Source: Thermomonospora catenispora
Lineage (GTDB): Bacteria; Actinomycetota; Actinomycetes; Streptosporangiales; Streptosporangiaceae
Assembly (NCBI RefSeq): GCF_006363815.1
Contig: NZ_RRYT01000012.1
Span: 114,934 to 147,721 of the forward strand
Reading direction: 5' to 3'
Length of the DNA: 32,788 nucleotides
Shown one piece after another: positions 8,039-29,431 of the stretch. Each line of letters opens with the position of its first letter. Position 1 is the first letter of the stretch. The position numbers were made by a program, and so were the translations under genes. Under the pieces are notes generated by a model that did not search any database, was not told the DNA's origin, and was given only the letters and a program-made list of their open reading frames with translations.

Positions 8039-8106
8039 CCGCACATCCCTATCAATCCCGCCTTCTCCCCCGCCACAGGACCCGGCTCCCGACACCGTGA
8101 TGCACA

Positions 8107-8130: not shown

Positions 8131-8204
8131 GGGTGAACGCCCCGAACGGGGCGAACGTCGACGCTCCGTCGTCACGGAGCCGCCGCTGGATCGAACGACG
8201 ACCG

Positions 8205-8863: not shown

Positions 8864-8960
8864 CAAAGAGAGCACGAGGTGCGATGCGTCCCATATGTCA
8901 CGCAAATCCCAAGCCGGGGAGATCATCGGCTCCGTCCGCAGGACCGTCAAGATCAAAATG

Positions 8961-8990
8961 AGCGCGGTGGCCGATGTCGGCCACCGCGCT
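8961..8990 (-). terminator. Strong hairpin terminator of the 712-aa gene
   Basis: AGCGCGGTGGCC-GATGTC-GGCCACCGCGCT is a perfect 12-bp stem with a 6-base loop. Read on the minus strand it is followed by CATTTTGATCTT, a U-rich tail, so it works best as the intrinsic terminator of the gene ending at 9094. It can also stop plus-strand transcripts from 8205-8863. The rest of 8864-9093 shows no gene I can support. Confidence 0.8.
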
Positions 8991-9093
8991 CGGCACCCTG
9001 CGTCGAAGATCCCGTCCGAGGTCCGCTCCGCCCAGCCCGCGAAGGCGGCCGCCCGACCCCCGCCCCGGCGCGCGGCCGTGCGCCGCGGCCGGG

Positions 9094-11232: not shown

Positions 11233-11574
11233 TCGCTGGTCGGGGTCCGTACCCGTACAGACTAAGGACCATGGGACGAATCCGCGCGTCGTTCAACAGA
11301 ACACGGAACACACTCCACAACGAACAGCAACATTTACCCCATCAAACACGCTCAGGAAGAGAACGGACAGAAGGCTTCTAGGCACACGGCACCGGGACGG
11401 ACGGCACCCTGCACGATGCACCACCATGGCAGGCCACAGCACGGGAACGGCACAGAAAATGGACCATTCCCCTCATCTACCCCCATTCCGGAGATAAGGT
11501 CGGCTGCGCGGGCCGCCGAGGCCCCGCCACGACCGTACCCGGCGCAAGGGGGCGCCCCGGGCACGAGGAGGTTC
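11233..11574. other. Divergent intergenic region, 342 bp
   Basis: It separates the degenerate ATPase gene (minus) from the sulfatase gene (plus). It contains a candidate minus-strand promoter (listed separately). On the plus strand there is a possible -10, TAAGGT at 11495-11500, without a convincing -35. The stretch 11290-11360 is noticeably A-rich for this genome. No RNA gene or supported small CDS was seen. Confidence 0.5.
11268..11296 (-). promoter_or_regulatory. Candidate promoter for the degenerate ATPase gene
   Basis: On the minus strand TTGAAC (11296-11291) and CATGGT (11273-11268) are separated by 17 bases, placing a start point roughly 30 bases before the GTG at 11232. The -35 is good and the -10 is weak. 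Confidence 0.3.
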
Positions 11575-13068
11575 ATGAAACCGGGCAGCAAAGCCCGCCG
11601 CATCGGCATCTGGTCGACCGCGGCGCTCGCGACGGCCGCCACCCTCACGGGCCTGACCGTGCTCTCGGTGAACGACTCCAAGCCCTCCCAGGACGACCAG
11701 GCGCACGCGGCGGTGCCCCCGCCCCCGCCGCCCTCCCAGCGCCCCAACATCGTCGTGATCACCACCGACGACCAGGACGTCGCCTCGCTGTCGGTGATGC
11801 CGAACGTGCGCCGCCTGCTGGCCGAGCAGGGCACCACCTACGCCAACTCCTTCTCCTCCACCCCGCTGTGCGCGCCGTCCCGGGCCAGTTTCCTGACCGG
11901 CCAGTACGCCCACAACCACGGGATCACCGACAACTCCGAGGCCACCGGCGGCGGCTATGAAGGACTGCGCAAGACCGAGACCCTGCCGGTGTGGCTGACG
12001 CGCGCCGGCTACTCCACCGCGCACATCGGCAAGTTCCTCAACGGCTACGGGGCCCACCGCCGCACAGAGATCCCGCCGGGCTGGAGCGACTGGTACGGGC
12101 TGGTCGGCCCGTCCACCTACACCATGTTCGGCTACACCATCAACGAGAACGGCCGGCTGCGCACCTACGGCGACATGCACACCCCGCAGCGCGGGCTCTA
12201 CCAGACCGACGTGCTGGCCTCCAAGGCGGTCGACTACATCACCCGCCGCCCCCACGCCGACCGGCCCTTCTTCCTGTCCATCAACACCCTGGCGCCGCAT
12301 CCGGAGCTGCCCGCGGTGAGCGGCCAAGGCAGATGGACGGCCCCGCGGCCCGCCCCGCGTCACCAGACCGCCCTGCCGGACGCGCGGCTGCCGCGGACCC
12401 CGGCGTTCAACGAGGCCGACGTGTCCGACAAGCCCCGGCACATCCAGCGGCTCGCCCCGCAGAACCCCCTGCAGCTCGACCACGACCACCGAAGACGGCT
12501 GCAATCGCTGCTGGCGGTCGACGACATGGTGGCCCGGATCGTGGAGTCGCTGCGCAGCACCGGTCAGCTGGACAACACGTTGATCTTCTTCACCTCCGAC
12601 AACGGCATGATGGAGGGCGACCACCGCATCAACTTCAAAGAGCACCCCTACGAGCAGTCCATCCGGGTGCCGCTGATCGTCCGGGGGCCGGGCGTGCAAC
12701 GCGGGAGGACCGAGCAGCGGTTCGTCACCACCGTCGACCTGACCGCCACGGTGCTGGCGGCGGCGCGGGCCAAGCCCGGGATCGCGATTGACGGCCGGTC
12801 GTTCCTGGGGACGGCCGCGCCCCGCTCGCGCGACATGCTGCTGGAGACCGGGCCGCGCGTCGGCACGACCCCCTGGTACACGGCGATCCGCACCGAACGC
12901 TATCTGTACGTGGAGCACTCCACCGGCGAGCGGGAGCTGTACGACCTGCTCACCGACCCCTACCAGGTCCAGTCCCGGCACGCCGATCCCGCGCTCCGGA
13001 AGGTGCGCGAAGACCTGGCCAGACGGCTGCACCTGCTGCGCAGCTGCGCCGGGCAGAGCTGCCCGTGA
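11575..13068 (+). CDS. Secreted formylglycine-dependent sulfatase
   Basis: 497 aa. A basic N-terminus and hydrophobic segment (IWSTAALATAATLTGLTVL) mark an export signal or membrane anchor, followed by a Pro-rich spacer. The mature domain starts RPNIVVITTDDQD, giving the metal-binding aspartates. The sulfatase signature CAPSR has C99 as the residue oxidised to formylglycine, and FTSDNG is a second metal-binding motif. The family hydrolyses sulfate esters and here would act outside the membrane. The ATG at 11575 has GAGGAGG five bases upstream, so the longer in-frame extension (ATG 11416) is rejected. The gene converges on the galactan export operon with only three bases between stops. With a sulfotransferase at 18114 in the same neighbourhood, a sulfated wall glycan is a plausible substrate. 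Confidence 0.93.
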   Translation: MKPGSKARRIGIWSTAALATAATLTGLTVLSVNDSKPSQDDQAHAAVPPPPPPSQRPNIVVITTDDQDVASLSVMPNVRRLLAEQGTTYANSFSSTPLCAPSRASFLTGQYAHNHGITDNSEATGGGYEGLRKTETLPVWLTRAGYSTAHIGKFLNGYGAHRRTEIPPGWSDWYGLVGPSTYTMFGYTINENGRLRTYGDMHTPQRGLYQTDVLASKAVDYITRRPHADRPFFLSINTLAPHPELPAVSGQGRWTAPRPAPRHQTALPDARLPRTPAFNEADVSDKPRHIQRLAPQNPLQLDHDHRRRLQSLLAVDDMVARIVESLRSTGQLDNTLIFFTSDNGMMEGDHRINFKEHPYEQSIRVPLIVRGPGVQRGRTEQRFVTTVDLTATVLAAARAKPGIAIDGRSFLGTAAPRSRDMLLETGPRVGTTPWYTAIRTERYLYVEHSTGERELYDLLTDPYQVQSRHADPALRKVREDLARRLHLLRSCAGQSCP

Positions 13069-13071
13069 GGC

Positions 13072-13827
13072 TCAGGAGGACCGCGCGGCCCTGGCCTTGG
13101 CCCGGCGGTCCTCCCGCCACATCTCGCCGGCGACCGCCACGTCGCCGTCGAAGACCAGCCGCCCGCGCCGCATCATGATGCCCCGCGAGCACAGCTCGGT
13201 GAGCAGCTTGATGTCGTGCGCCACGATCACCATGGTCATGCCCTGGTCGCGGAGCTCCCGGATGCGCGCCAGGCACCGCTGCCGGAACGGCGGATCGCCC
13301 ACCGCCAGCGCCTCGTCGATCAGGAAGACGTCCGGCTCGGTGTGCGCGGCGATGGAGAAGCCCAGCCGCATGAACATCCCCGAGGAGTAGAACTTCACCT
13401 GGCTGTCCAGGAACCGCCCCACCCCGGCGAACTCCACGATGGCGTCGAACTTGCGCCGGGTCTCCGCCTCGGTCATGCCGAGGATGGCCGCGTTGAGGAA
13501 GATGTTCTCCCGGCCGGTCAGCTCCGGATGCAGCCCGGCGCCGACGTCGATCAGCCCGGCCACCCGCCCGCGGACCCGCACCGAGCCGCGGTCCGGCAGC
13601 AGCACCCCGGAGATCATCTTCAGCAGGGTGCTCTTGCCCGACCCGTTCAGCCCCATCAGGGCGAGCGTCTCGCCCTCCTCGACGGTGAAGCTCACGTCCT
13701 CCACCGCGCAGAACCGCTCCGAGAGGCTCTGCCGCCGCGCCATCCGCACCGTCAGCTCGCGCAGCGAACGCGCGTGCCGCAGGGTGAACGTCTTGGTGAC
13801 CGAGTCCACGATGATCGACGTCGCCAT
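13072..13827 (-). CDS. wzt: Galactan/polysaccharide ABC exporter, ATP-binding subunit
   Basis: 251 aa ABC ATPase of the Wzt/RfbE/TagH class. Walker A is GLNGSGKST (59-67), the signature is the polysaccharide-export variant YSSGMFMRLGFS, Walker B is VFLIDEALAVGD, and the switch histidine is in VAHD. The length is close to mycobacterial Rv3781, the galactan exporter ATPase; the C-terminal carbohydrate-binding extension of some Gram-negative Wzt proteins is absent. It starts four bases after the permease stop and is the last gene of the glf-glfT2-wzm-wzt operon. It would power flipping of the lipid-linked galactan made by the upstream enzymes. Confidence 0.93.
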   Translation of the reverse strand: MATSIIVDSVTKTFTLRHARSLRELTVRMARRQSLSERFCAVEDVSFTVEEGETLALMGLNGSGKSTLLKMISGVLLPDRGSVRVRGRVAGLIDVGAGLHPELTGRENIFLNAAILGMTEAETRRKFDAIVEFAGVGRFLDSQVKFYSSGMFMRLGFSIAAHTEPDVFLIDEALAVGDPPFRQRCLARIRELRDQGMTMVIVAHDIKLLTELCSRGIMMRRGRLVFDGDVAVAGEMWREDRRAKARAARSS

Positions 13828-13831
13828 CGGA

Positions 13832-14695
13832 TCACAGCTCCTGCGCGAAACGGCCGTGCAGCCGGCCGAAGACGTACCTGCCCAGCAGCAGCACCGCCGC
13901 CCCGACCGCCAGCGCCGCGACGGCCCGCGGATACAGGTCCGGCGGGAACTCGAAGGAGCGGTCCGTGCCGGGGTACCAGAACGCCCGCTGGAACAGCGAC
14001 ACCGCGGTCACCAGCGGATTGGCCAGGTACACGTCCAGCACCCACGCCGGCGCGTTGTCGCGGACCTGGGTCCAGGGGTAGATCATCGGCACCGACCAGG
14101 TGAACACGACCATGAGCACGTCCACCGCCTGCTCCAGGTCGCGCAGCAGCACGTTCACCGCCGAGCACAGCAGCGCCAGGCCCAGCGCCAGCAGCGCCGT
14201 GATCGCGAACCCCAGTACCGCGGCGCCCATCCCCACCGGGTCCGGCCGCCATCCGCTCGCCAGCGCGCCGGCCAGCAGGATCAGCAGGCCCGGCACCATG
14301 TGCACCAACGACACCAGGTACGCCGCCACCGGGAACGTCTCGCGCGGCAGGAACACCTTGCGCACCAGCGGGGCGTTGCCGGTGACCGACCGGGTGGAGG
14401 CGTGCAGGGCGTCGTTGAAGAAGTGCATCAGCACCATCCCGGAGAAGAGGAAGACCGCGAAGTCCTCGATCGCGTCGTCCACTCCCAGGAACACGCCGAC
14501 CACGAAGAAGTACACCGCGAACGACACCGCCGGCCGCACATACGACCAGCCGAGCCCCAGCAGCGAGCTCTTGTAGCGGGCCTTCAGCTCCCGGCGCACC
14601 AGCAGCCGCAGCAGATACCGGCGCCGGATCACCGCGCGCAGTCCTCCGCCGCGGCCGGGCTCCACCAGTTCCCCGGTCACCGTGGGGGCCGCCAT
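13832..14695 (-). CDS. wzm: Galactan/polysaccharide ABC exporter, permease subunit
   Basis: 287 aa ABC-2 type permease, of the kind pairing with Wzt-class ATPases (mycobacterial counterpart Rv3783). The cytoplasmic N-terminus contains RRELKARYKSSLLGLGWSYVRP, typical of this family. About six membrane helices follow, including SFAVYFFVVGVFLGV, YLVSLVHMVPGLLILLAGAL and GFAITALLALGLALLCSAV; LLRDLEQAVDVLMVVFTWSVPMIYP is a conserved-looking block. Two starts are possible. ATG 14695 lies five bases past the glfT2 stop; GTG 14704 overlaps that stop as GTGA and adds three residues. Neither has a clear Shine-Dalgarno, so translational coupling to glfT2 is likely either way. Confidence 0.92.
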   Translation of the reverse strand: MAAPTVTGELVEPGRGGGLRAVIRRRYLLRLLVRRELKARYKSSLLGLGWSYVRPAVSFAVYFFVVGVFLGVDDAIEDFAVFLFSGMVLMHFFNDALHASTRSVTGNAPLVRKVFLPRETFPVAAYLVSLVHMVPGLLILLAGALASGWRPDPVGMGAAVLGFAITALLALGLALLCSAVNVLLRDLEQAVDVLMVVFTWSVPMIYPWTQVRDNAPAWVLDVYLANPLVTAVSLFQRAFWYPGTDRSFEFPPDLYPRAVAALAVGAAVLLLGRYVFGRLHGRFAQEL

Positions 14696-14700
14696 GCCGA

Positions 14701-18030
<3,330 letters not shown>

Positions 18031-18113
18031 AACCCGCGCCCCGTGAGAGCCAACCCGGCGACCGTCCAGGACCGCGGCGCGCATCACGGCATTCCCCGCG
18101 CAGGAAGTGAACG

Positions 18114-19433
18114 ATGTCCCAGACCCCCTCCCGTCCGGTCGTCTACCTGCACATCGGCACACCCAAGAGCGGGACGACATACCTGCAGGGCATCCTGTGG
18201 CATAACCGGCAGGCCCTGCGCGAGGAAGGACTGCAGTACACCGGCCGCGAGCACGGCGCGCATCTGCGCGCCTCGTTCGACTTGCAGGAACGGGACGTGC
18301 AGGACGGCTGGCGCGACCCGGCGATCGCGGGCGCGTGGAAGCAGGCGGTGGAGGAGGCCCGGGAATGGCCCCGCCGCACGCTGATCTCCCACGAGACGTT
18401 CGCGCTGGCCGAGCCCGAGCACGCCGACCGGGCGCTGGCCGACCTGGACTTCGCCGAGGTCCACCTCATCATCACCATGCGGGACCTGGCCCGGCAGATC
18501 CCGGCCGCCTGGCAGGAGGAGGTCAAGAACCGCAACCCGGTGACCTACCAGACCTACCTGTCGCGGCTGCGGGAGGACCCCGCCCCGGACCGTCCCCGGC
18601 ATCCGTTCTGGGTGTTCCAGGACGTGCCGGGGATCCTGGAGCGGTGGGCGCGCGACGTCCCGCCCGAACGCGTGCACATCGTGACGGTGCCGCCGCCGGG
18701 TTCCCCGCCCACGGTGGTGTGGGAGCGGTTCTCCCGCGTGCTGGGGATCGACCCCGCCCGGTACGACACCACGCGCACCTTCGGCAACCCGTCCCTGGGC
18801 ATGGCGCAGGCGCAGCTGCTGCGCAAGTTCAACGAGCTGCTGCTGGCCCGGCCCGAGGAGGAGCGGCCGAGCTGGCCGGACTATCTGCGGATCTTCAAGG
18901 ACGTCTACGCCCAGCAGATCCTGGTGGAGCTGCCCGGGGACCGGCGGATCACGCTGCCGAAGGACTGCCACGACTGGGTCGTCGAACGCGCCGAGACGAT
19001 GATCTCCGAGCTGCGGGACGGCGGATACGACATCGTCGGCGACCTGGAGGACCTGCGCCCCGCGCTGCCCGCAGACCCCGCCCCCGCCGCCGCCCCGGTC
19101 GGCGACGACGCCCTGCTGGAGACCGCGCTGCGGTCCGTCGAGGCGCTGATCCGCCGGATGGAGCGGGAGCGCGAGCAGGCCCGGCGGCGACTGGAGCGGG
19201 CCCGCGAGGAGGCCCGGGCCGAGGCCGACGGGCTGCGCGCCCGGATCGCCGAGCTGGAGGAGGTCCTGGGCAAGCCCGCGGTCAAGCTGTTCGTGCGACG
19301 GCTCAGCGAGCAGTACCCGCCGGTGATGCGGGCCCGGGTGGCCTACTGGCACGCCGTGGAGTCCGGCCGGCGGGTCTGGGGCGGGCCGAACCGCCCCCGC
19401 CGGCGCGACGAGCGTCCCGGTGACCGGTCGTGA
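18114..19433 (+). CDS. PAPS-dependent sulfotransferase
   Basis: 439 aa, sulfotransferase family, predicted to move sulfate from PAPS to a hydroxyl of a glycan or lipid. The 5'-phosphosulfate loop is TPKSGTTYLQ (16-25) right after the first beta strand. The 3'-phosphate motif region is LIITMRDLARQIPAAWQE, with the R and a following helix in the expected order. A WNR/EH...SHETF stretch between them is also typical. The last ~100 residues form a charged coiled coil (RRMEREREQARRRLERAREEARAE) followed by a basic tail, similar to tails of actinobacterial glycan-modifying enzymes. AGGAAG lies about eight bases before ATG 18114. The stop overlaps the next gene as GTGA, so sulfation and glycosyl transfer are probably co-expressed. 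Confidence 0.9.
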   Translation: MSQTPSRPVVYLHIGTPKSGTTYLQGILWHNRQALREEGLQYTGREHGAHLRASFDLQERDVQDGWRDPAIAGAWKQAVEEAREWPRRTLISHETFALAEPEHADRALADLDFAEVHLIITMRDLARQIPAAWQEEVKNRNPVTYQTYLSRLREDPAPDRPRHPFWVFQDVPGILERWARDVPPERVHIVTVPPPGSPPTVVWERFSRVLGIDPARYDTTRTFGNPSLGMAQAQLLRKFNELLLARPEEERPSWPDYLRIFKDVYAQQILVELPGDRRITLPKDCHDWVVERAETMISELRDGGYDIVGDLEDLRPALPADPAPAAAPVGDDALLETALRSVEALIRRMEREREQARRRLERAREEARAEADGLRARIAELEEVLGKPAVKLFVRRLSEQYPPVMRARVAYWHAVESGRRVWGGPNRPRRRDERPGDRS

Positions 19434-20395
19434 ACGCCCGGGTCGTCGCGGTCGTCGTCACCCATGACCGGCGGGAGCTGCTGGCCGAATCGCTGACCGC
19501 GATCATCGAGCAGACCCGGCCCCCGGACCTGATCATCGTGGTGGACAACGCCTCCACCGACGGCACCCGGCAGATGGTCCGCGAGCGGTTCCCCCAGGTG
19601 GAGCTGCTGGCGCTGGGCGCCAACACCGGAGGGGCGGGCGGTTTCGCGGCGGGCATGGCGCTGGCGCTGGAACGCGACGCCGAGCGGATCTGGCTGATGG
19701 ACGACGACACCGTCCCCAAGCCGGGCGCGCTGGAGGCGCTGCTGGCCGCCGCGGACGGCGCCGCGCTGGTGGCCAGCCGGGTGATCTGGACCGACGGCCG
19801 GCCGCACCCGATGAACACCCCGCGTCCCAAGCCCGGCGCCACCCCCGCCGAACGGGCCGCCGCCCACCGCGTGGGCTGCATCCCCATCCGGTCGGCGTCG
19901 TTCGTGTCGGTGCTGGTGGACGCGGCGGCGGTCCGGGAGTGCGGGCTGCCGATCGCCGACTACTTCCTGTGGAACGACGACTTCGAGTTCACCACCCGGC
20001 TGCTGCGCGGCCGGATCGGGCTGCTGTGCCCGGCCAGCGTGGTCGTCCACAAGACCAGGACCTACGGCGACATCGACGTCGATCCGGGTCCGCGGTTCTT
20101 CTACGAGGTCCGCAACAAGATCTGGCTGTTCACCCGCAGCCCCGGCCTGGAACCGAAGGAGCGCGCCCTGTACGCCGGCGCGACGGCCCGGCGCTGGGCC
20201 CGCGCCCTCGCCAGATCCCCCGACCGCGCCCGGCTCGGCCGGGCCCTGCGCCGCGGCCTGGTGGCGGGCCTGACCACCCGGCCCCGTCCGACCGAGGAGT
20301 TCCTCCGCAGGCTCCCCGTCGACGAACACGCCAAGGGGCAAGAGGAGTCATCACGGGTGACGCCGACGTCCTCGCACGATTCCCCGCCCGATTGA
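19430..20395 (+). CDS. GlfT1-like family 2 glycosyltransferase
   Basis: 321 aa GT-A fold enzyme. It shows VVVTHDRRELL, VVDNASTDGT, NTGGAGGFAAGM, the metal-binding DDD at 91-93, YFLWNDDFEFTTRL and GPRFFYEVRNKIWLF. This order and the GGAGGF and RFFY.VRN motifs match mycobacterial GlfT1 (Rv3782), which adds the first galactofuranose residues to the rhamnose-containing linker. The GlfT1 role is likely but not proven; related rhamnosyl- or galactosyltransferases share the motifs. The GTG start overlaps the sulfotransferase stop (GTGA). The C-terminus is basic, consistent with membrane association, and ends in a low-complexity tail. Confidence 0.88.
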   Translation: MNARVVAVVVTHDRRELLAESLTAIIEQTRPPDLIIVVDNASTDGTRQMVRERFPQVELLALGANTGGAGGFAAGMALALERDAERIWLMDDDTVPKPGALEALLAAADGAALVASRVIWTDGRPHPMNTPRPKPGATPAERAAAHRVGCIPIRSASFVSVLVDAAAVRECGLPIADYFLWNDDFEFTTRLLRGRIGLLCPASVVVHKTRTYGDIDVDPGPRFFYEVRNKIWLFTRSPGLEPKERALYAGATARRWARALARSPDRARLGRALRRGLVAGLTTRPRPTEEFLRRLPVDEHAKGQEESSRVTPTSSHDSPPD

Positions 20396-20425
20396 CCCCC
20401 ATCCCCTCATCCGACGGCGGCAGGC

Positions 20426-23400
20426 ATGAGCCAGGCGAACTCCTCCCACCCCGGATCCGACGCGCCGGCCCCCTCGGCGCCCCGGCCCCGCCCGGCCATG
20501 ACGGCGGCGACCCTCCTCGCGGGGGTCGCGGGACTGCTGTGCGCGCTGGCGCTGCCCTTCGCACCGGTGCTGGTCACCCAGGCGACGGTGACCTGGCCGC
20601 CCGCGGGCGAGGCGCCCCGCTCCACGACGGCGTTCTTCGTGCCGTACGAGCCGGCGGAGATGCGCCTGCGGGTGCCCTGCCGCGTCCTCCGGCAGAGGCC
20701 GGCCGCCGAGGAACGGACGACCGTCTTCGCCACCGGCGGTGAGGAGTCCGTTCGGGCCGGGCGCGCCCTGGTGCTGGAGACCGAACGCGGCCTGCTGCGG
20801 ATCCACCTGAACGGACGCCTGGTCACCGCCGTCGCCCCGTCCCCCGCCGGCTGCGACGTCGCGGTGGACGCCACCGCCGACGCCACCACCGTCACGGTGG
20901 GGTCCGCGCCGCCCATCCGGCTCGCCGGGCAGGTGCCGCAGATCCACGCGTTCGTCACCCGGCTGCCTCCCGAGCAGGCGCGCGGCATCACCGTCACCGC
21001 CCGCGCCCGCAACTGGTTCGAGGCCTCCCCGACCGGCCTCAAGCAGGCGCTGATCGCCGGGCAGGCGCTGCTGGCCGCCGCTTCCCTGGCGCTGCTGTGG
21101 CGGGCGGGACGACGGGCCGCCCCGGCGGTCCCGGAACACGCCCGCCGTGCCCGCCGGCCCCGCCGGGCACGGCGGGCACGGCGGGCACGGCGGGCGACGG
21201 CGATCGCCGCGGCGGACGCGGCCGTCGTCGGCGTGCTGGGGGCGTGGGCGGTCATCGGGCCGATGACCGCCGACGACGGCTACGCGATGATGACCATCCG
21301 CAACGCCGTGCACAGCGGGGACATCGGCAACTACTACCACTGGTACAACGCCTCCGAGGCGCCGTTCACGCTGTGGCAGCGGATCATCGGGCTGATCGCG
21401 CCGGTGAGCCTGGCGCCGGTGTGGCTGCGGCTGCCCAGCGTCCTCGCCGGGGCGCTCACCTGGCTCCTGGTCCACCGCGGGCTGGTGCGCGAGCTGCTGC
21501 CCCGGCATGCGGGCCGCCCGTCGGTGGCGCTGCTCACGGCGGTGCTCTTCCTGGCCTGGTGGCTGCCGTTCGGGCTGGGCATCCGCCCCGAGCCGATGGT
21601 CGCGCTGTGCGTCACCGCGACGTTCGCGTTCCTGCTGCGGGGCGTCCGTCCCGGCGCGGGCGTCCGCGGGCTGCCGTGGCTGGGGGCGGCGGCGCTGGCG
21701 GCCGGGCTGGGTCTGAGCGTCACCCCGTCGGGGATCTTGGTCTTCGCGCCCGTCCTGGTGCTGCTGCCGCGCATCCGGCGGACCCTGCGGGCGGGGCTGC
21801 CGGCGGGGGCGTGGGCGGCACTGGCCGGGCGGATCGCCGCCCTCGCCGCGGCGGCCTCCGCCGGGCTCACCGCCATGTTCTGGGCGCAGAGCCTGCGCGG
21901 CACGCTCAAGGCCACCGAGGTCCATGACGAGATCGGCCCCAGCCACGCCTGGCACGAGGAGCTGATCCGGTACCAGTACCTGCTCGGCGAGGGCGCCATG
22001 GGCGGCGCCGCCAAGCGGGTCGCGGTGCTGGTGACGCTGGCGCTCCTGATCACCATGGTCGCCCTGGTCGCCCGGCACGTCCGCGCCGTCGCCGGGCTGC
22101 GGCTCGTCCACCTGCCCACCGCGGTCACGGCGGCGGCGTTCCTGCTGCTGTGCCTGACCCCCTCCAAGTGGTCGCACCACTTCGGCGCGTTGGCGGGCGT
22201 GGGCTCGGCGTTCGCGACGGTCGCGACGGTCGCCGTGGTCCTGGCGGTCCGCCGGAACGCCGATCGGGGCACCGCCGTCATCGCCATGGCGGGCGGCGGC
22301 CTGGTCGCACTGGCCGCCGCCCTGGCGTTCTCCGGGCCCAACCGCTGGTGGCCGTGGAGCGAGTACCAGCTGCCGTGGGCGGGCAGGCGGATAACGCCGC
22401 TGGGGCTGCCGTTGTCCAGCCCGCTGCTGTGGGCGGCGGTAGCGCTGGCGGCCGCGGGCGTGTGGGCGGCGGTGCACCGCGCCGCCGATCCGCGGGCCCG
22501 CGGACGGGCGGCGCTGGCGGCCTCGCCGGCGCTGCTGGCCGTGCTCGCCTCGGCCGCATCGGTCGCGGCGATGCTGGTGAGCTTCGCGGTGGCGCCCTTC
22601 CGCGACCCGGCCTCCTACACCCTGGGCCGGCAGAACATCGGGCATCTGACCGGCTCCGACTGCGGACTGCCCGACAGGGTCGAGGTGCTGCCGGACGTGC
22701 CCGGCGGGGTGCTCGACCCGTTGGACGCCGCCGAGGCGCGGAAGGCCGAGCCCGCCGACCGGACGGGGTTCGCGGCGCAGGCGGGCTTCCCCGGGCAGGT
22801 CTCCCCCACGCCCCCCGTCGGAGAGGGGCCGCACCGGTTCGTGTGGGGGAGCTTCCTCCCCGGCGAACGCGGCGGCGATCTGGTCACCGGGCGGTTCACC
22901 AGCCCGTGGTTCCGGCTCCCGGCGCTGCGGCCCGGCCAGGAGCTGGCCCTGTCGGTCGCCGGCGAGGTCACCGGCGGCAACCGGCTGGTCCTGGAGTTCG
23001 GTCGGGCGGGGACGGACGCGCCGGTGGCGGCCCGGACGCCGACCGTCCCCGCCGGCGACCGGTGGCGGACCGCGGCGCTGCCGGCGTCGGCCGTGCCGGC
23101 CGGGAGCGACCGGGTCCGGGTGCGGGCCGTGGACGGCTCCACCGGGTTCGGCGGCTGGTTGGCGTTCAGCGGCCCCCGGATCCGGGAGGCGGTGAGGCTG
23201 TCGGACTTCCTGACCCGGCGTCCGGGCCCCCGGCTGGTCGCCTGGGAGATGGCCTTCACCACGCCCTGCGTGACCGACTTCCCCCCCGTGGCGCACGGCC
23301 TGGCCACCGCGCCCACGACCCTGATCCAGGTCCCCCAGACGCTGAACGCCGGGATCATCTTCAACGCCCGCATGGGCGGCAGCCTCTACGGCGCGCGTCT

Positions 23401-23554
23401 CACCGGCCGGTTCTCGGAGGTGCCGAGCCGGCTCGTGGGGCGTCCCGGCAAGGCGTGGGGGCGTCTGGTGCTCATCGACTATCCGTTCGCGCGCGACGCC
23501 TACGACGTCGCGCTGCGCACGGTCCGGCTCAACGGCTGGGAGGGCGACCGGTAG
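20426..23554 (+). CDS. Emb-family arabinosyltransferase
   Basis: 1042 aa, comparable to EmbA/B/C (about 1,070-1,100). These GT-C enzymes use decaprenyl-phosphoryl-arabinose to add arabinofuranose outside the membrane. The first helix and periplasmic jelly-roll region match the family (LPFAPVLVTQATVTWPP...VPC). The catalytic acidic motif TADDGYAMM has D283-D284. NYYHWYNASEAPF and LPSVLAGALTWLL follow as in Emb proteins, then many membrane helices to about residue 720. The C-terminal carbohydrate-binding domain is recognisable (SPWFRLPALRPGQELALSVAG; GGWLAFSGPRI; WEMAFTTPC; YGARLTGRF). A cytoplasmic Arg/Ala-rich loop (about 238-258) is unusual. The start is ATG 20426, 30 bases after the preceding stop; a later in-frame ATG is also possible. 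The actual sugar donor could be a different prenyl-phospho sugar. Confidence 0.9.
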   Translation: MSQANSSHPGSDAPAPSAPRPRPAMTAATLLAGVAGLLCALALPFAPVLVTQATVTWPPAGEAPRSTTAFFVPYEPAEMRLRVPCRVLRQRPAAEERTTVFATGGEESVRAGRALVLETERGLLRIHLNGRLVTAVAPSPAGCDVAVDATADATTVTVGSAPPIRLAGQVPQIHAFVTRLPPEQARGITVTARARNWFEASPTGLKQALIAGQALLAAASLALLWRAGRRAAPAVPEHARRARRPRRARRARRARRATAIAAADAAVVGVLGAWAVIGPMTADDGYAMMTIRNAVHSGDIGNYYHWYNASEAPFTLWQRIIGLIAPVSLAPVWLRLPSVLAGALTWLLVHRGLVRELLPRHAGRPSVALLTAVLFLAWWLPFGLGIRPEPMVALCVTATFAFLLRGVRPGAGVRGLPWLGAAALAAGLGLSVTPSGILVFAPVLVLLPRIRRTLRAGLPAGAWAALAGRIAALAAAASAGLTAMFWAQSLRGTLKATEVHDEIGPSHAWHEELIRYQYLLGEGAMGGAAKRVAVLVTLALLITMVALVARHVRAVAGLRLVHLPTAVTAAAFLLLCLTPSKWSHHFGALAGVGSAFATVATVAVVLAVRRNADRGTAVIAMAGGGLVALAAALAFSGPNRWWPWSEYQLPWAGRRITPLGLPLSSPLLWAAVALAAAGVWAAVHRAADPRARGRAALAASPALLAVLASAASVAAMLVSFAVAPFRDPASYTLGRQNIGHLTGSDCGLPDRVEVLPDVPGGVLDPLDAAEARKAEPADRTGFAAQAGFPGQVSPTPPVGEGPHRFVWGSFLPGERGGDLVTGRFTSPWFRLPALRPGQELALSVAGEVTGGNRLVLEFGRAGTDAPVAARTPTVPAGDRWRTAALPASAVPAGSDRVRVRAVDGSTGFGGWLAFSGPRIREAVRLSDFLTRRPGPRLVAWEMAFTTPCVTDFPPVAHGLATAPTTLIQVPQTLNAGIIFNARMGGSLYGARLTGRFSEVPSRLVGRPGKAWGRLVLIDYPFARDAYDVALRTVRLNGWEGDR
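21165..21195 (+). repeat. 9-bp tandem repeat inside the Emb-like gene
   Basis: About 3.4 copies of GGGCACGGC encode the ARR repeats of a cytoplasmic loop. The segment 21141-21157 is nearly complementary, so the mRNA can form a strong hairpin here. Confidence 0.75.
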
Positions 23555-23584
23555 TCCTTTCCGACGACCGCTAGCGAGGTTCCC

Positions 23585-24577
23585 ATGACAGCGACCGAGG
23601 TCCCCGCGACCGGCGCCGGGCGGGCGCCGAAGAAGACGATTTCCTACGCGCTGCCGGTCTACAACGAGGCGGGCTGCCTCCGGCTGTTCCATCAGCGGCT
23701 GGTCGAGGCGACCGACGCGCGACCGGAGTACGACTACGAGTTCGTGTACGTCAACGACGGGTCACGGGACGGGTCCCTGGAGATCCTGCGCGAGCTGGCG
23801 TCGGCCGACCCGCGGATCCGGATCGTGGACTTCGCCCGCAACTACGGCCATCAGATCGCCATCACCGCGGGAATCGACCACGCCACCGGGGACGCGGTCA
23901 TCGTGATGGACACCGACCTGCAGGACCCCCCGGCGGTGAGCATGGAGCTGGTGGACGCCTGGGAGCGGGGCGCCGACGTCGCCTACGCCCAGCGCCGGAC
24001 CCGCAAGGACACCCCCTTCAAGCGGTTCACCGCCCATGCGTACTACCGGCTGCTGCGCCGGCTGGCCGAGGTGGACATCCCCGTGGACGCCGGGGACTTC
24101 CGGCTGCTGGACCGCAAGGTGGCCGACGAGCTGAGCCGGTACCGCGAGCGCAACCGGTTCCTGCGGGGGATCATCGCCTCGATGGGGTTCACCCAGGTCG
24201 CCGTGCCGTTCGACCGGGACGAGCGGGCGGCGGGCGAGACGAACTACTCGCTGGGCAAGATGCTGCGGCTGGCGGTCGACGGGGTGACCGGGTTCTCCAC
24301 GGCCCCGCTGAAGGCGATCACCCGGCTGGGCTTCGTGACCGTGGCGCTGTCGATCCTCGGCATCGTCTACGCCCTGGTGCTGCGGATCTTCTTCCCGGAG
24401 ATCTCGGTCTCCGGGTGGACCCTGCTGATGATCAGCATCCTGTTCCTGGGCGGGGTGCAGATGCTCTCCCTGGGGGTGATCGGCTCCTACGTCGGCCGGA
24501 TCTATCAAGAGGTGCAGAACCGGCCCCTCTACATCGTTCGGGAGATCGTCCAGCATGACGCGCGCGAGACCGCCTGA
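23585..24577 (+). CDS. Polyprenyl-phosphate glycosyltransferase (GtrB/DPM1-like)
   Basis: 330 aa GT2 enzyme that makes a polyprenyl-phosphate-linked sugar. The catalytic core shows ALPVYNEAGCL, VNDGSRDGSLEIL, RNYGHQIAITAGIDHA and the metal-binding DTDLQDPP at 109-116. DAGDFRLLDRKV and ERNRFLRGIIASMGF follow. Two C-terminal membrane helices (GFVTVALSILGIVYALVLRIFF and LLMISILFLGGVQMLSLGVIGSYV) are diagnostic of the GtrB/ArnC group. It follows the Emb-like gene by 30 bases and overlaps the GtrA gene by 23, so it probably supplies a lipid-sugar donor that GtrA flips. The sugar is unknown. Confidence 0.92.
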   Translation: MTATEVPATGAGRAPKKTISYALPVYNEAGCLRLFHQRLVEATDARPEYDYEFVYVNDGSRDGSLEILRELASADPRIRIVDFARNYGHQIAITAGIDHATGDAVIVMDTDLQDPPAVSMELVDAWERGADVAYAQRRTRKDTPFKRFTAHAYYRLLRRLAEVDIPVDAGDFRLLDRKVADELSRYRERNRFLRGIIASMGFTQVAVPFDRDERAAGETNYSLGKMLRLAVDGVTGFSTAPLKAITRLGFVTVALSILGIVYALVLRIFFPEISVSGWTLLMISILFLGGVQMLSLGVIGSYVGRIYQEVQNRPLYIVREIVQHDARETA

Positions 24578-24986
24578 GGCGCCCGCGGCCCCGGCCGCCT
24601 CCGCCGGGCCGCGGGAGGGATACCGGCAGTTCGCCCTGTACACGGTCATCGGCGGATCGGGCGTGCTGCTGGACCTGGCGCTGTTCGCCGTGCTGTTCAA
24701 CGTGGCCGGCCTGGACGAGCAGGCGGCCAACCTGCTCGGCATCAGCGCCGGGATCACCAACAACTTCGTGTGGAACTCGCTGTTCACCTTCCGCCGGACC
24801 GACCGGCCGCTGGTCAGGTTCGCCCGGTTCTACCTGGTGGGGCTGAGCGGGCTGGCGCTGACCGCGGCGCTGCTGTGGCTGCTGTCGGACGTGCTGGGGA
24901 TCGACGCCAATCTCGTCAAGCTCGTCTCGCTGCCGCTGGTGCTGGCGCTGCAGTTCTGGCTCAACAAGAAATGGAGTTTCCGATGA
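24555..24986 (+). CDS. GtrA family membrane protein (lipid-linked sugar flippase-like)
   Basis: 143 aa. After a Pro/Ala-rich N-terminus come four membrane helices: FALYTVIGGSGVLLDLALFAVLF, ANLLGISAGITNNFVWN, FYLVGLSGLALTAALLWLL and LVKLVSLPLVLALQFWLNKKWSF. NNFVWNSLFTFRR and the end FWLNKKWSFR are family hallmarks. GtrA proteins are associated with moving or handling prenyl-phosphate sugars; mycobacterial Rv3789 is the arabinan-pathway member. The gene overlaps the GtrB-like gene upstream and the flavoprotein gene downstream (ATGA), making a three-gene coupled unit. Confidence 0.92.
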   Translation: MTRARPPEAPAAPAASAGPREGYRQFALYTVIGGSGVLLDLALFAVLFNVAGLDEQAANLLGISAGITNNFVWNSLFTFRRTDRPLVRFARFYLVGLSGLALTAALLWLLSDVLGIDANLVKLVSLPLVLALQFWLNKKWSFR

Positions 24987-26269
24987 GGGTCGGCATCGTC
25001 GGCGCCGGGGCCACCGGGCTGACCGCCGGGTTCGAGCTGGTCAAGGACGGCCATGAGGTGACCCTGCTGGAGGCCGAGCCGGAGCTGGGCGGGCTGGCGG
25101 CCTCGATCTCGGTGGGCGGCACCCCGCTGGAGCGCTACTACCACCACGTCTTCGCCGGCGACACGGCGATGATCTCCCTGATCGAGGAGCTGGGGCTGGG
25201 TCCCCGGCTGCGCTTCCACAGCCCGACCACCGGCATCTTCTACGACGGGAGGCTGCACGACTTCACCTCCCCGCTGCAGATGCTGCGGTTCACGCCGATC
25301 CCGCTGCTGGACCGGCTGCGGTTCGGGATGTCCTCGGTGCTGCTGAAGCTGATCCGCGACGGGGAGCGGCTGGGCGACCGGCGGGCGATCGAGTGGACCC
25401 GGCGCTGGGCGGGCCGACGCGCCAGCGAGGTGATCTGGGAGCCGCTGCTGGCCGGGAAGTTCGGCGACCGCGCCGACGAGGTGTCGATGGCGTGGCTGTG
25501 GGCGCGGGTGAACTGCCGCACCTTCAAGCTCGGCTACGTGGACGGGGGTTTCGACCAGGTCTACACGCGGCTGGCGGAGCGGATCTCGGCCGCCGGCGGG
25601 AAGATCGAGCTCGGCGCGCGGGTGGACGGCATCCGCCAGGCGGACCCCGCCGGCCCGGTGGAGGTCACCACCCGGGAGGGGACCCGCTACTCCTTCGACC
25701 GGGTGCTGGCCACCGTCCCGCAGTCCACGTTCGCCAAGGCGATCGGCGCCGAACCCGACGACCCGCTGTGGGCCGCGGGGTATCTGGGGGCGACCTGCTT
25801 CATCCTGGAGCTGGACCGCAGCGTCATCCCCTACTACTGGCTGAACGTCAACGACCCCGATTTCCCGTTCCTGGCGGTCGTGGAGCACACGCGGATGATC
25901 CCGCCGAGCGAGTACGGCGGCCGCCACATCCTGTACGTGGGCAACTATGTGCCGCGCGACGACTGGCGTTACACCACCGCGCCGGAACGGCTGCTGGAGA
26001 GGTTCGCGCCCTATCTGCGCCGGCTCAATCCCGATTTCGAGCTGTCGTGGGTGCGACGGTGGCACTATTCTCGTGCGCCGTTCGCCCAGCCCATCGTCAC
26101 TCCCGGCTATCGGGACCGCATCCCCGCCCACCGGACGCCGCTGCCGGGCGTGGTGCTGGCGACGATGTCCCAGATCTATCCGCAGGACCGTGGACAGAAC
26201 TATGCGGTGCAGATGGCCCGGGACGTCGTCCACAGGTATTTCCGCCGGTCCGGCGGGCGCCCGGACTGA
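24983..26269 (+). CDS. FAD/NAD(P)-dependent oxidoreductase, amine-oxidase fold
   Basis: 428 aa. The N-terminal dinucleotide-binding motif is MRVGIVGAGATGLTAGFEL, with the acidic residue after strand 2 in LLEAEPELGGLAAS. RYYHHVFAGDTAMISLIEELGL and KFGDRADEVSMAWLWAR are typical of the protoporphyrinogen-oxidase/amine-oxidase-like group often annotated in glycan loci; UDP-galactopyranose mutase belongs to the same broad superfamily. The C-terminus has the FAD-contacting pattern (VLATMSQIYPQDRGQNYAVQMARDV). ATG 24983 overlaps the gtrA stop, and the ORF upstream of it is an out-of-phase artefact. The substrate is unknown; coupling to GtrB and GtrA suggests a lipid-linked or nucleotide sugar. Confidence 0.88.
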   Translation: MRVGIVGAGATGLTAGFELVKDGHEVTLLEAEPELGGLAASISVGGTPLERYYHHVFAGDTAMISLIEELGLGPRLRFHSPTTGIFYDGRLHDFTSPLQMLRFTPIPLLDRLRFGMSSVLLKLIRDGERLGDRRAIEWTRRWAGRRASEVIWEPLLAGKFGDRADEVSMAWLWARVNCRTFKLGYVDGGFDQVYTRLAERISAAGGKIELGARVDGIRQADPAGPVEVTTREGTRYSFDRVLATVPQSTFAKAIGAEPDDPLWAAGYLGATCFILELDRSVIPYYWLNVNDPDFPFLAVVEHTRMIPPSEYGGRHILYVGNYVPRDDWRYTTAPERLLERFAPYLRRLNPDFELSWVRRWHYSRAPFAQPIVTPGYRDRIPAHRTPLPGVVLATMSQIYPQDRGQNYAVQMARDVVHRYFRRSGGRPD

Positions 26270-26329
26270 ACGGCGGGAAGCGGCCTCGGGACGAAGGCTC
26301 GACGCGAAGATTCGCCCTCCTCGTCCCGC

Positions 26330-26335
26330 TATGAT
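26330..26335 (+). promoter_or_regulatory. Candidate -10 element upstream of the beta-propeller gene
   Basis: TATGAT lies 57 bases before the GTG at 26393, in the 123-bp gap after the flavoprotein gene. No good -35 is visible at 16-18 bases, so the assignment is tentative. Confidence 0.3.
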
Positions 26336-26392
26336 CCCAGGCGATGGGCCTGCGGCCTGCGGCACCCGACGAACGACAACGGAGAGACGGGC

Positions 26393-29300
26393 GTGACCTC
26401 ACACAGCAATCCCGGGGACGAGCCGCGCGACGACCGGCCCTCGACCGGAGGGGCGAACCAACCCGACGAGCAGGGCTTCGCGGCGGGCCCGCCGCCGGTG
26501 CCGCAGTGGGCCCAGGAGCCCGACCGGCCGCAGGACGCGGTCCCGCCGCCGCCGTCGTACGATCCGGGTGCGCCGCCGCCGTTCGGCACGCCCGCTCCGA
26601 ACCTGCTGCCGGACGCCCCTCCCCCGCCGCCGTTCGCCGGCGAGACCGCACCGCAGCAGCCGCCCGCGGACGGCCCGTCGCCGTTCGGCGCGCCCGGCTC
26701 GTTCCTGCCCCCGGACCCGGCGACGCCGCAGCCTCCGCCGCCCGCGCCGTCGGAGACGCCGGCGGACCTGCCGCCTCCGCCGACGGACCAGACCAGGACG
26801 GACACTCCGGCCCTGTGGGGGGCGCCGCCGCCGGCGCCGGACCAGACGGTGGCGGACATCCCGCCGCCGGCGGACGCGACCGCACCGGACGCTCCGCCAC
26901 CGCAGCAGCCGCCCGCGGACGTGCCGGAGGTCCCGCCGTCCCAGCCGCCCTCGCCGCTGGTCCCGCCCCAGTTCCAGCAGCAGCAGCAGTACGTGCCGCC
27001 GCCGACGCCGCAGCCGCCGGTCCCCCAGCCCCAGCAGCCGCAGCCCCCGGCCCTCCAGCCGGCCGAATCCGAGCTGGGACGCGGCCGCCAGCCGGTGCAG
27101 CAGCCGTACGAGCCGTGGCGGATCGAGCGGCCCGCCCGCCGGGGCCCCAGGATCCCCAAGGGCCTGGTGATCGGACTGGCCGGGGCGACCGGCGTCGCGG
27201 TGGTGGCGGCCGCCGGAGCCTTCGTGCTGTTCGGCGGCGACGGGGAGAACGACCCCACCGCCCAGATCAGCAAGATCGCCGACAAGGAGTTCGCCGGAGC
27301 CGACAACGCCGTGTCCGACGGCCGCACCCAGGTCGTCACCTCGGCCGCCGCCTCGGGCGACACCGTGGTGGCGGTCGGCGCGGAGACCGGCCCCGGGCAC
27401 GCCCGCGGCCAGTTCCTGGTGTCCACCGACGGGGGCCGCACGTTCCGGCCGGGCACCGCCCGCGAGCCCGACGGCGGCGACCCCGCCCCCGGCATGCTGC
27501 CCCAGCAGGTGACCGCCTCCTCCACGGGCTGGGTGGCCCTGGGCAGCCGGCCCGGCGGGGTGGCGTTGTGGACCAGCCAGGACGGCCACACCTGGCAGCG
27601 GCAGCAGCTCGGCCCCTCGTTCGGGCCGAACGACCATGTGACCGCGCTGACCTCCGGGCGGCAGGGCCTGGTGGCGGTCGGCTACACCGGCGCCAAGCCC
27701 GACCGCAGCGACGCCGAGCCGGTGCTGTGGACCAGCCGGGACGGCCGCACCTGGCAGCGTCAGGACGCCCGCGCGCTGAAGTTCAACGACGAGGGCGGCG
27801 CCCTGCACCTGACCCATGTGGCCACCGACGGCAAGACCACGCTCGTCCAGGGCGTCATCCTCAAGAAGGCCGGCGGCAGGCTCCAGCCCGGCCGCCGGGT
27901 CTGGCGTTCCGACGACTGGCGCACGTGGGAGCCGGGCAAGGTCCCCGTCCCCAAGGGCAACGCCGGCATGCTGATCGGCGGCGGCCCCACCGGCCTGCTG
28001 GTCGCCCGCGACGTCCGCCGCGGCGGGCAGACCTACGCGCAGGTGTACCGGTACGACGACGGCAAGTGGCGGGAGGCCGGCCGGATCCAGACGCCCGGGC
28101 AGACCCGGGTGCTGAGGATGCTGGCCGGCGAGCAGGGCCACGTGGCGGTGGTCGGCACCCAGCAGCAGGGCATGGTGCTGCAGTCCAGCGGCGACGGGGA
28201 GAGCTGGCGCGACGTCGGCACCCTGCCGTTGGACACGATCACGCAGGTGCTGGGCGGCACGGTCACCTCCCGGCAGACCGTCGTCACCGGCGCCAAGACC
28301 ATGGGCGAGGACGTCGACGCGGTGATCGCCGTCCGCGACGCCCAGGGCGGGGAGGTCTCCGTCGACCTGTCCGCCGTGGAGGGGCTGCAGCGGCCCGACC
28401 GGGCGGTGACCGCGGTGACCGTGGCCGGGGACCGGACGGTCGCGGTGGGCGGCGCCGACGGCGACGCCTCGGTGTGGACCTCCGCGGACGGACGGTCCTG
28501 GAAGCGCGCCCAGGGGCAGGGCGCGGTGCTGGCCCGGCGCGGCATCCAGCGGCTGACCGATGTGACCCACGGCGGGCGCGGCTGGCTGGCGGTCGGCTTC
28601 GACAACGGCCAGGGGCGGCGTCCGCTGGTCGTCACCTCCGCCGACGGGAACACCTGGCAGGCCGTCGACGGCGACGAGGCGTTCCGGCCGGGACGGCGGC
28701 CGCTGTCCACCAACGCCGCCGCCGCGGGACCGGGCGGCTATGTGATCGTCGGGGAGGAGGGCTCCTCGGCCGCCGCCTGGTTCTCCGCCGACCTGCGGAC
28801 CTGGGAGCGCGCCAAGGGCGCCGGGGACGAGGACCTGGAGTCCGACGGCGGGATGAGCATGCTGTCGGTCACCGCCGCCGGCAACGGGTTCGTGGCGGTC
28901 GGCTCCCTCAACGACCCCAACGCCGACGGCGGCTCCCCCGTCCGCCCCGCCCTGTGGACCTCCGCGGACGGGCGCACCTGGTCGCTGCAGCGGCCGGAGC
29001 TGCCGCAGGGCTTCCGGGACGGCCGGCTCACCCATGTGCGGGCCAACGGGAACACGCTGGTGGCCTTCGGCGCCGGCACCGGCTCCAACGGCCAGACTCC
29101 GCTGGCGTACGCCTCCGCCGACGGCGGCCGCACCTGGGAGCCGGTCGCCCTGCCGACCGGCGACAAGCCCGCCGCGCCGACCGCGGTGACGGCGACCGAC
29201 AACGGCTTCGCGGCGACCATCGCGAACGGCCGGCCGGGGACGGCGGACGTGGCGCTGTGGACCTCCCGTGACGGCAAGGCCTGGCGGGCCGAGACGGTGG

Positions 29301-29431
29301 AGGGCGAGGGCCTGACCGGAGCCGGGGATCAGCGCATCCTCGGGCTGGCCGGCCTGCGGGGCGGGCTGCTGGGCGTCGGGATCACCAGCGACGCCAAGAG
29401 CGACCACCCCGTGCTGTGGGTGCTTCCCTGA
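26393..29431 (+). CDS. Membrane-anchored beta-propeller protein with Asp-box repeats
   Basis: 1012 aa. The N-terminal ~245 residues are Pro/Gln-rich and disordered. One membrane helix (VIGLAGATGVAVVAAAGAFVLF, about 262-283) follows, and the rest should be extracytoplasmic. About ten Asp-box/BNR-like repeats occur: STDGGRTF, TSQDGHTW, TSRDGRTW, SSGDGESW, TSADGRSW, TSADGNTW, FSADLRTW, TSADGRTW, ASADGGRTW and TSRDGKAW. Between them are VAVG strands, as in sialidase-like propellers, but without the sialidase catalytic residues I would look for. A binding or scaffold role in the wall is likely. GTG 26393 has GGAGAG upstream. Its layout (disordered cytoplasmic arm, one helix, outer domain) parallels the zinc-ribbon proteins at the left of the window. 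Confidence 0.85.
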   Translation: MTSHSNPGDEPRDDRPSTGGANQPDEQGFAAGPPPVPQWAQEPDRPQDAVPPPPSYDPGAPPPFGTPAPNLLPDAPPPPPFAGETAPQQPPADGPSPFGAPGSFLPPDPATPQPPPPAPSETPADLPPPPTDQTRTDTPALWGAPPPAPDQTVADIPPPADATAPDAPPPQQPPADVPEVPPSQPPSPLVPPQFQQQQQYVPPPTPQPPVPQPQQPQPPALQPAESELGRGRQPVQQPYEPWRIERPARRGPRIPKGLVIGLAGATGVAVVAAAGAFVLFGGDGENDPTAQISKIADKEFAGADNAVSDGRTQVVTSAAASGDTVVAVGAETGPGHARGQFLVSTDGGRTFRPGTAREPDGGDPAPGMLPQQVTASSTGWVALGSRPGGVALWTSQDGHTWQRQQLGPSFGPNDHVTALTSGRQGLVAVGYTGAKPDRSDAEPVLWTSRDGRTWQRQDARALKFNDEGGALHLTHVATDGKTTLVQGVILKKAGGRLQPGRRVWRSDDWRTWEPGKVPVPKGNAGMLIGGGPTGLLVARDVRRGGQTYAQVYRYDDGKWREAGRIQTPGQTRVLRMLAGEQGHVAVVGTQQQGMVLQSSGDGESWRDVGTLPLDTITQVLGGTVTSRQTVVTGAKTMGEDVDAVIAVRDAQGGEVSVDLSAVEGLQRPDRAVTAVTVAGDRTVAVGGADGDASVWTSADGRSWKRAQGQGAVLARRGIQRLTDVTHGGRGWLAVGFDNGQGRRPLVVTSADGNTWQAVDGDEAFRPGRRPLSTNAAAAGPGGYVIVGEEGSSAAAWFSADLRTWERAKGAGDEDLESDGGMSMLSVTAAGNGFVAVGSLNDPNADGGSPVRPALWTSADGRTWSLQRPELPQGFRDGRLTHVRANGNTLVAFGAGTGSNGQTPLAYASADGGRTWEPVALPTGDKPAAPTAVTATDNGFAATIANGRPGTADVALWTSRDGKAWRAETVEGEGLTGAGDQRILGLAGLRGGLLGVGITSDAKSDHPVLWVLP

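Follow-up and report, generated by a model that had tools for sequence, protein, structure and literature searches.

The available portion of PMC11127046 contrasts two archetypes, one relying on GtrB, GtrA, and a glycosyltransferase of the C-type fold (GT-C) for glucose and the other on UbiA and DprE for mycobacterial arabinan; it also describes a pentofuranose three-component system of Citrobacter, composed of a UbiA-like synthase, a MATE flippase, and a GT136 enzyme. Emb proteins are described as users of decaprenyl-phosphoryl-arabinose (DPA) in the accessible part of PMC7341804, and PpgS and Rv3779 are reported, in the available text of PMC5964476, to add galactosamine to mycobacterial arabinogalactan. 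Here, we analyzed a stretch of 32,788 nucleotides from Thermomonospora catenispora (the window), in which a gene of the Emb family stands together with gtrB, gtrA, and an FAD oxidoreductase gene inside a galactan biosynthesis locus. By analogy, the window appears to join the GT-C of the arabinan archetype to the supply line of the glucose archetype. It forms the end of a contig of 147,721 bases; the draft genome comprises 5.35 Mb and 109 contigs, with an estimated completeness of 99.98% and a contamination of 2.33%.

The window is made of two units of different origin. We read it as a galactofuranan locus carrying an inserted emb-gtrB-gtrA-FAD oxidoreductase three-component system, whose donor is probably other than DPA made by the known route, and we assign this reading a probability of about 0.6. 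The gene identities, the native locus, the boundaries and recurrence of the cassette, the catalytic residues, and the negative result for UbiA and DprE1 rest on sequence.

The galactan locus and the four-gene cassette

The cassette lies on the forward strand and encodes an Emb-family GT-C of 1042 amino acids (20426..23554; PF04602 at E 5.9e-93, with the N- and C-terminal Emb domains PF17689 and PF14896 and no NCBIfam match), a GtrB-type polyprenyl-phosphate sugar transferase of glycosyltransferase family 2 (GT2) (23585..24577), a small GtrA-type membrane protein, putatively a flippase (24555..24986; PF04138 at E 1.1e-25), and an FAD oxidoreductase of the NF005560/PRK07233 family (24983..26269; 477.7 bits, with a cut-off of 252). 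Against the PDB, the Emb protein matches EmbB at E 2e-77, and GtrB matches the solved GtrB-type protein sll0501 first (E 6e-82) and ArnC-type transferases next. The GtrB, GtrA, and GT-C genes stand side by side (20426-24986), as in Gtr three-component systems.

GlfT2 occurs in 71 genomes besides that of the host, and the loci of 14 of them (4 of the same genus, 9 of the same family, and 1 of the same order) were compared. Emb, gtrA, and the FAD oxidoreductase occur in none of the 14, and gtrB is represented by one weak, partial match of 34%; the cassette is therefore a separable unit. The stop codons of glfT1 and of the gene for a further GT2 glycosyltransferase (29472..30383, reverse strand; PF00535) are separated by 8 bp in L123, a same-genus locus, and by 9077 bp in the window. 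In L131, from another genus, glfT1, the gene for a BNR-repeat protein (26393..29431, forward strand; PF13088), which here adjoins glfT1, the GT2 gene, and the gene for an LCP-family protein, a putative polymer-to-peptidoglycan ligase (30533..31957, reverse strand; PF03816 and PF13399; 84% identical in L123), follow each other in the window order without emb, gtrB, gtrA, and the oxidoreductase. From these two loci it follows that the inserted piece covers approximately 20396 to 26392 (about 6 kb), downstream of glfT1, the last native gene before the cassette. Furthermore, Emb exceeds the Pfam cut-off in a single genome of the 297 in the order sample, that of the host, with fragments under the cut-off in two others, and the class sample holds it in 15 of 197 genomes, namely, the host and 14 genomes of one family with 2 to 5 copies each. 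On this sequence comparison, the insertion of the four genes as a cassette into a native galactan locus is well supported.

It is highly improbable that the cassette was placed in this genome by an assembly chimera or by contamination. Even though the draft has 109 contigs and 2.33% contamination, and Emb is unique to the host in the order sample, the cassette is internal to its contig, has the composition of its neighbors, and is flanked on both sides by native-type genes (90% identity for glf and 84% for the LCP gene with the same-genus genome G004). The gene adjoining glfT1 encodes a PMT_2-type GT-C in L122, L124, and L129 and a GT4 enzyme in L120 (from G002), and this spot therefore seems to exchange glycosyltransferases.

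The native unit comprises, on the reverse strand, the genes for a Wzt-like ABC ATPase (13072..13827; PF00005, and NF050108 at 158.2 bits), a Wzm-like ABC permease (13832..14785, the 5' part of which possibly lies outside the gene; PF01061), the galactan polymerase GlfT2 (14701..16683, start approximate; PF17994 at E 7.6e-35 and PF19320 at E 6.5e-46), and the UDP-galactopyranose mutase (UGM) Glf (16686..17867, start approximate; TIGR00031 at 346.6 bits, with a cut-off of 303.75). On the forward strand, a sulfotransferase-like gene (18114..19433) precedes that of a GlfT1-like GT2 (19430..20395; NF050113 at 102.5 bits, with a cut-off of 330); GlfT1, Wzt, and Wzm all score under their NCBIfam cut-offs. 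An earlier note, made from the sequence alone, had named eight genes in two divergent arms, and Pfam and NCBIfam recovered each of them in its place. Its picture of a non-mycobacterial host with galactofuranan machinery (Glf, GlfT1, GlfT2, Wzm/Wzt) and a true Emb-family protein, and with no UbiA/DprE genes in the window, was likewise confirmed. Its list omitted the sulfotransferase-like gene, the FAD oxidoreductase, the GT2 at 29472..30383, the LCP protein, and a sulfatase encoded next to wzt (11416..13068, forward strand; PF00884 at E 2.5e-49, with a CAPSR motif at residue 152).

GlfT2 was detected in 72 of the 297 order genomes, host included, which belong to 12 of 62 genera, and in all five genus members examined; at these frequencies, the idea of a galactan locus universal in the family was rejected. 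As the 14 loci of the relatives were fetched around GlfT2, glfT2 is present in all of them by construction; some stretches end at contig ends, so that lower gene counts are minima. They contain glf in 14 cases, glfT1 in 13 (62 to 73% identical), the sulfotransferase in 12, wzt in 12 (one at 27%), wzm in 11, the GT2 gene in 9, the sulfatase and the BNR gene in 6 each, and the LCP gene in 4. Judged by sequence, Glf, GlfT2, Wzm, Wzt, and GlfT1 form a predicted galactofuranan locus that recurs in relatives.

Relationships of the Emb protein and occurrence of the cassette

The Emb type of the window, for which we use our own label EmbX, was placed in a tree of 94 of the 101 gathered proteins, leaving out four identical plasmid-type copies and three repeats from genome G043; a match in L181, split into two pieces, was not among the 101. 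The window protein groups with those of Geodermatophilus and Blastococcus (support of 99) in a clade apart from EmbA/B/C (100), and a chosen subset of 36 rows under a mixture model gave the same grouping (98/97) and the same separation (100/100). The gtrB tree, with the window and 17 of the 21 cassettes found in other genomes (see below), again joins the same trio (98). Since the two trees agree, the cassette seems to travel as a unit.

The active-site residues of M. smegmatis EmbB given in the available part of PMC7341804 are D285, D286, E313, R389, and E391. By motif and spacing, the M. smegmatis protein itself being outside the alignment, their equivalents in the window are D283, D284, E311, R387, and E389, all of which are intact. 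With 3 of the 94 rows, which form a third group, left out of the count, these residues occur in 56 of 56 EmbX rows and in 35 of 35 canonical rows (33 of 35 for E311). Thirteen columns switch between the two groups, including G->N308, N->L384, and A->P279 near active-site residues; Q318 and S580 of the window are two more such columns in the vicinity of the active site. The window protein has the domain architecture and the catalytic residues of the Emb family and lies outside the EmbA/B/C clade.

A tblastn search of plasmids matched 13 records, the best being an Emb on M. avium pMAC109a (39%) and a match on M. kansasii pMK12478 (37%); these are nearer to the window Emb than are the chromosomal EmbA/B/C of G043 (27.5 to 29.3%). 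The plasmid-type Emb of pMAC109a (L137) also occurs, with 100% protein identity, in L169 to L173, from five Mycolicibacterium, Mycolicibacter, and Mycobacterium species, which suggests recent plasmid spread. An alignment of the window and plasmid Emb was used to scan named genomes and yielded 46 loci, which are not an unbiased sample, both scan patterns being the window and plasmid proteins. In 21 of the 46, emb, gtrB, gtrA, and the oxidoreductase gene occur in the same order on one strand: Blastococcus saxobsidens, Geodermatophilus dictyosporus, Streptomyces jeddahensis, 17 Saccharopolyspora, and one Halosaccharopolyspora. The other 25 carry emb without the cassette (23 mycobacterial loci, one Saccharopolyspora, and one Pseudonocardiales metagenome-assembled genome). 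The identity of the window proteins to those of the Geodermatophilaceae cassettes is 48 to 49% for Emb, 50 to 54% for GtrA, 69 to 70% for GtrB, and 69 to 73% for the oxidoreductase, and GtrB is 65 to 72% identical to 17 cassette copies.

Of 148 class genomes, 6 have a member of the NF005560 family above its cut-off, host included, and homologues of the oxidoreductase at E 1e-20 are found in 2 of 60 relatives, the host and the same-family genome G012. Among six oxidoreductase loci free of the cassette, a GT2 gene adjoins in L223, L224, L225, and L230 and not in L226 and L227; in L230, from G012, a GtrB-oxidoreductase pair (8092-10532; about 41% identical) stands with no Emb match within 18 kb. 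Such pairs without Emb (4 of 6 loci), and the position of Emb as the least conserved cassette protein in the comparison with Geodermatophilaceae, would suit a scenario in which Emb came with the cassette and is idle without its original donor, while GtrB, GtrA, and the oxidoreductase serve another, unlinked GT-C. We consider this quite unlikely, given that long divergence has left both the reading frame and the catalytic residues undamaged and that every one of the 21 cassette loci has emb upstream of gtrB, a set found through Emb in which copies of the cassette lacking Emb could not appear.

Donor supply and the proposed pathway

A search of the host genome with UbiA and DprE1 of G043, with all 11 candidates scored, returned only five partial matches to the DprE1 part, of 56 bits at most, which we read as generic FAD oxidases. 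With PF01040 (20 of 20 candidates scored), two UbiA-superfamily genes were found in the host; both have counterparts of similar score in the five other genomes searched, and we read them as putative heme and quinone enzymes. A DPPR-synthase-type UbiA and DprE1 were thus not found in the host genome by either search, and for this reason DPA from the known route is an unlikely donor. Seven other genomes that carry this Emb type were tested, and all seven have both UbiA and DprE1; the host stands apart from them in having Emb but no detectable DPPR synthase or DprE1. A general lack of DPA in cassette hosts was rejected as a hypothesis, both UbiA and DprE1 being present elsewhere in the genomes of Blastococcus, Geodermatophilus, and S. 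jeddahensis, and the claim is limited to the host of the window.

Among 32 same-family genomes of other genera, 20 have matches of the UbiA/DprE type whose best E lies below 1e-60. Of the four genomes from the same genus, one carries adjacent UbiA, DprE1, and DprE2 genes, and the other three have no UbiA-DprE match stronger than E 3.8e-17 (8 candidates scored each); none of these 36 genomes has Emb. In many same-family genomes (including L134, L135, and L136), the UbiA, DprE1, and DprE2 matches are about 41 to 47% identical and occur without Emb; a nearby open reading frame of 1387 amino acids in L135 looks AftD-like by inspection.

The same searches bear on the explanation that a real arabinogalactan is made, in which Emb would use DPA from enzymes that were missed or fall in assembly gaps, and GtrB, GtrA, and the oxidoreductase would add an extra decoration. 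The retention of all Emb catalytic residues speaks for it, as do the seven of seven genomes combining this Emb type with UbiA and DprE1, the 20 same-family genomes with strong matches, and the precedent of PpgS/Rv3779, by which a lipid-linked amino sugar is placed on arabinan (available text of PMC5964476). We hold it to be unlikely, since DPPR-type UbiA and DprE1 were not found in a genome estimated to be 99.98% complete and three of the four same-genus genomes gave nothing beyond E 3.8e-17. The earlier note, which had called the locus arabinogalactan type and its gene set the core of that pathway, had suggested an Emb family tree and a genome search for ubiA and dprE1. The former sets the window Emb apart from EmbA/B/C, the latter did not find the DPPR-synthase-type UbiA and DprE1, and with these results, together with the separable cassette, the notion of a pathway core is not supported. 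The designation holds for the galactan half only, and the other option raised there, a different galactofuranose polymer, suits the evidence better. The locus is real and unusual, and it is not of the mycobacterial arabinogalactan type.

The structure model of the FAD oxidoreductase (mean predicted local distance difference test score, pLDDT, of 78.5) has, by Foldseek, the fold of protoporphyrinogen oxidase and phytoene desaturase, a likeness that suggests a greasy substrate, e.g., a polyprenyl-linked sugar. The best 50 of the 1126 matches (E up to 0.001) are protoporphyrinogen oxidases, phytoene desaturases, amine oxidases, and other flavin oxidases; as they include no UGM, a UGM-like mutase role was rejected.

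Within our preferred reading of a galactofuranan locus with an inserted three-component system, we infer the donor sugar, the acceptor, the role of the oxidoreductase, and sulfation. Glf would make UDP-galactofuranose, from which GlfT1 and GlfT2 would assemble a lipid-borne galactan; Wzm/Wzt would export it, the LCP enzyme would ligate it to peptidoglycan, and a sulfotransferase dependent on 3'-phosphoadenosine 5'-phosphosulfate (PAPS) would perhaps sulfate it. GtrB would move a sugar from its nucleotide-activated form to polyprenyl phosphate, and the FAD oxidoreductase may alter either this lipid-linked sugar or its lipid. With the aid of GtrA, the lipid-linked sugar would pass through the membrane, and outside the cell the Emb-type GT-C would attach the sugar to the exported galactan. 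We tentatively hypothesize, at a little under even odds, that the Emb-type GT-C uses a sugar supplied by GtrB and GtrA, possibly with the oxidoreductase, on a sulfated galactofuranan and that the members of the Emb family are not all arabinosyltransferases. Unlike the well-supported insertion, the change of donor is an interesting proposal that lends itself to testing.

Sulfation of the galactan by a PAPS-dependent sulfotransferase is plausible from the sequence of the gene at 18114..19433, which has homologues in 12 of the 14 loci of relatives. The window protein carries HIGTPKSGTTYLQ near its N terminus, an instance of HxGxxK(S/T)GTT, which we take to be the PAPS-binding motif. By eye, this motif is present in 14 of the 16 aligned proteins (the window and 15 of 18 matches, leaving out two long overlapping frames and one long frame, in L124/L125) and degenerate in two paralogues. 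These are second sulfotransferase copies (L120:4580-5809 and L122:4547-5725), possibly inactive partners of an intact one. The CAPSR-motif sulfatase next to wzt has homologues in 6 of the 14 loci.

A number of observations weigh against our reading. The catalytic residues of the window Emb are the canonical ones, and in the 25 loci without the cassette this Emb type stands without gtrB and is presumably fed by DPA. Of the 21 cassette loci, 18 have DprE1 and/or UbiA genes inside the fetched stretch, and the genomes of the remaining three carry UbiA and DprE1 elsewhere; the cassette therefore usually accompanies a DPA supply. Blastococcus stands close to the nearest relatives of the cassette, and its strains in most cases show arabinose in whole-cell sugars according to the available part of PMC9686282. 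The host genome is a draft, and with a combined query that included DprE2 and AftA (8 of 37 candidates scored), both of the host matches listed, the best 2 of 5, fall in the DprE1 part rather than in DprE2 or AftA, the remaining three having E worse than 9.4e-11. The oxidoreductase tree (the window, 18 of the 21 cassettes, and two outside proteins) gives the window no supported placement, the Geodermatophilus protein being nearest by path and by identity (73%); an alignment of the oxidoreductase covered the window and 15 of the 21. Pfam support for the sulfotransferase is weak (of 16 proteins, 6 match Sulfotransfer_3 and 3 match Sulfotransfer_1, best E 0.00027, and that of the window matches neither), a PDB profile search with it returned nothing meaningful, and its single-sequence model, with a pLDDT of 42, is unusable. 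Finally, the composition of the cassette does not mark it as foreign; a recent transfer judged by composition is not supported, and the move must therefore be old or the source genome of similar make-up.

In the rest of the window, the reverse strand encodes a HerA-like ATPase of 1001 amino acids with HerA_C and DUF87 matches (5102-8107), and two adjoining forward genes (79-1701 and 1824-2780) encode proteins that have CxxC zinc-ribbon-like N termini and match nothing in Pfam; TVQDD segments are repeated in the second. Scans of the window for tRNA and Rfam families matched nothing.

Comparison with known systems

In open-licence papers, we found no report of Emb with GtrB/GtrA or of sulfated galactofuranans in these actinobacteria, and nothing on the wall sugars of other Thermomonospora species. 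Emb is the target of the tuberculosis drug ethambutol, and an intact Emb next to GtrB/GtrA, with no detectable DPPR-type UbiA or DprE1 in the genome, offers a natural test of whether the donor specificity of Emb is fixed. If our reading is true, this would be a mobile hybrid three-component system uniting the archetypes of arabinan and of O-antigen glucosylation. The recurring four-gene unit offers a way to look for unknown wall glycans of Geodermatophilaceae, Saccharopolyspora, and the order of the host, and the repeated presence of a sulfotransferase-like gene next to those for galactan is suggestive of sulfated galactofuranans in these actinobacteria.

The mycobacterial and corynebacterial arabinogalactan locus (glf, glfT2, ubiA, aftA, dprE1/E2, and emb; here the G043 cluster) shares with the window its galactan half (Glf, GlfT1, GlfT2, and Wzm/Wzt), with identities of 71% for Glf, 41% for GlfT2, 34% for Wzt, and 31% for GlfT1, and has Emb proteins 27.5 to 29.3% identical to that of the window. 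Different from that locus, the window has one Emb, of another clade, in a host without detected DPPR-type UbiA or DprE1, and adds the sulfotransferase, GtrB, and the FAD oxidoreductase. As in the Gtr systems of O-antigen modification, GtrB and GtrA adjoin a GT-C beside a locus for an ABC-exported glycan, but the GT-C comes from the Emb family and an FAD oxidoreductase is added. The Citrobacter pentofuranose system, as far as the available portion of PMC11127046 describes it, is similar in using a lipid-linked donor and a GT-C with a carbohydrate-binding domain to modify an exported glycan, whereas the window has GtrB/GtrA in place of the UbiA-like synthase and MATE flippase, and Emb in place of GT136. 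PpgS/Rv3779, in the accessible text of PMC5964476, likewise pair an enzyme that charges polyprenyl phosphate with a transferase acting on a polymer containing galactofuranose, the transferase being Rv3779 there and Emb in the window. Lastly, the arabinogalactan-type clusters of Saccharopolyspora (among L141 to L180) hold the same four cassette genes in the same order on one strand, but there the cassette lies near DprE1/DprE2/UbiA genes, unlike that of the window.

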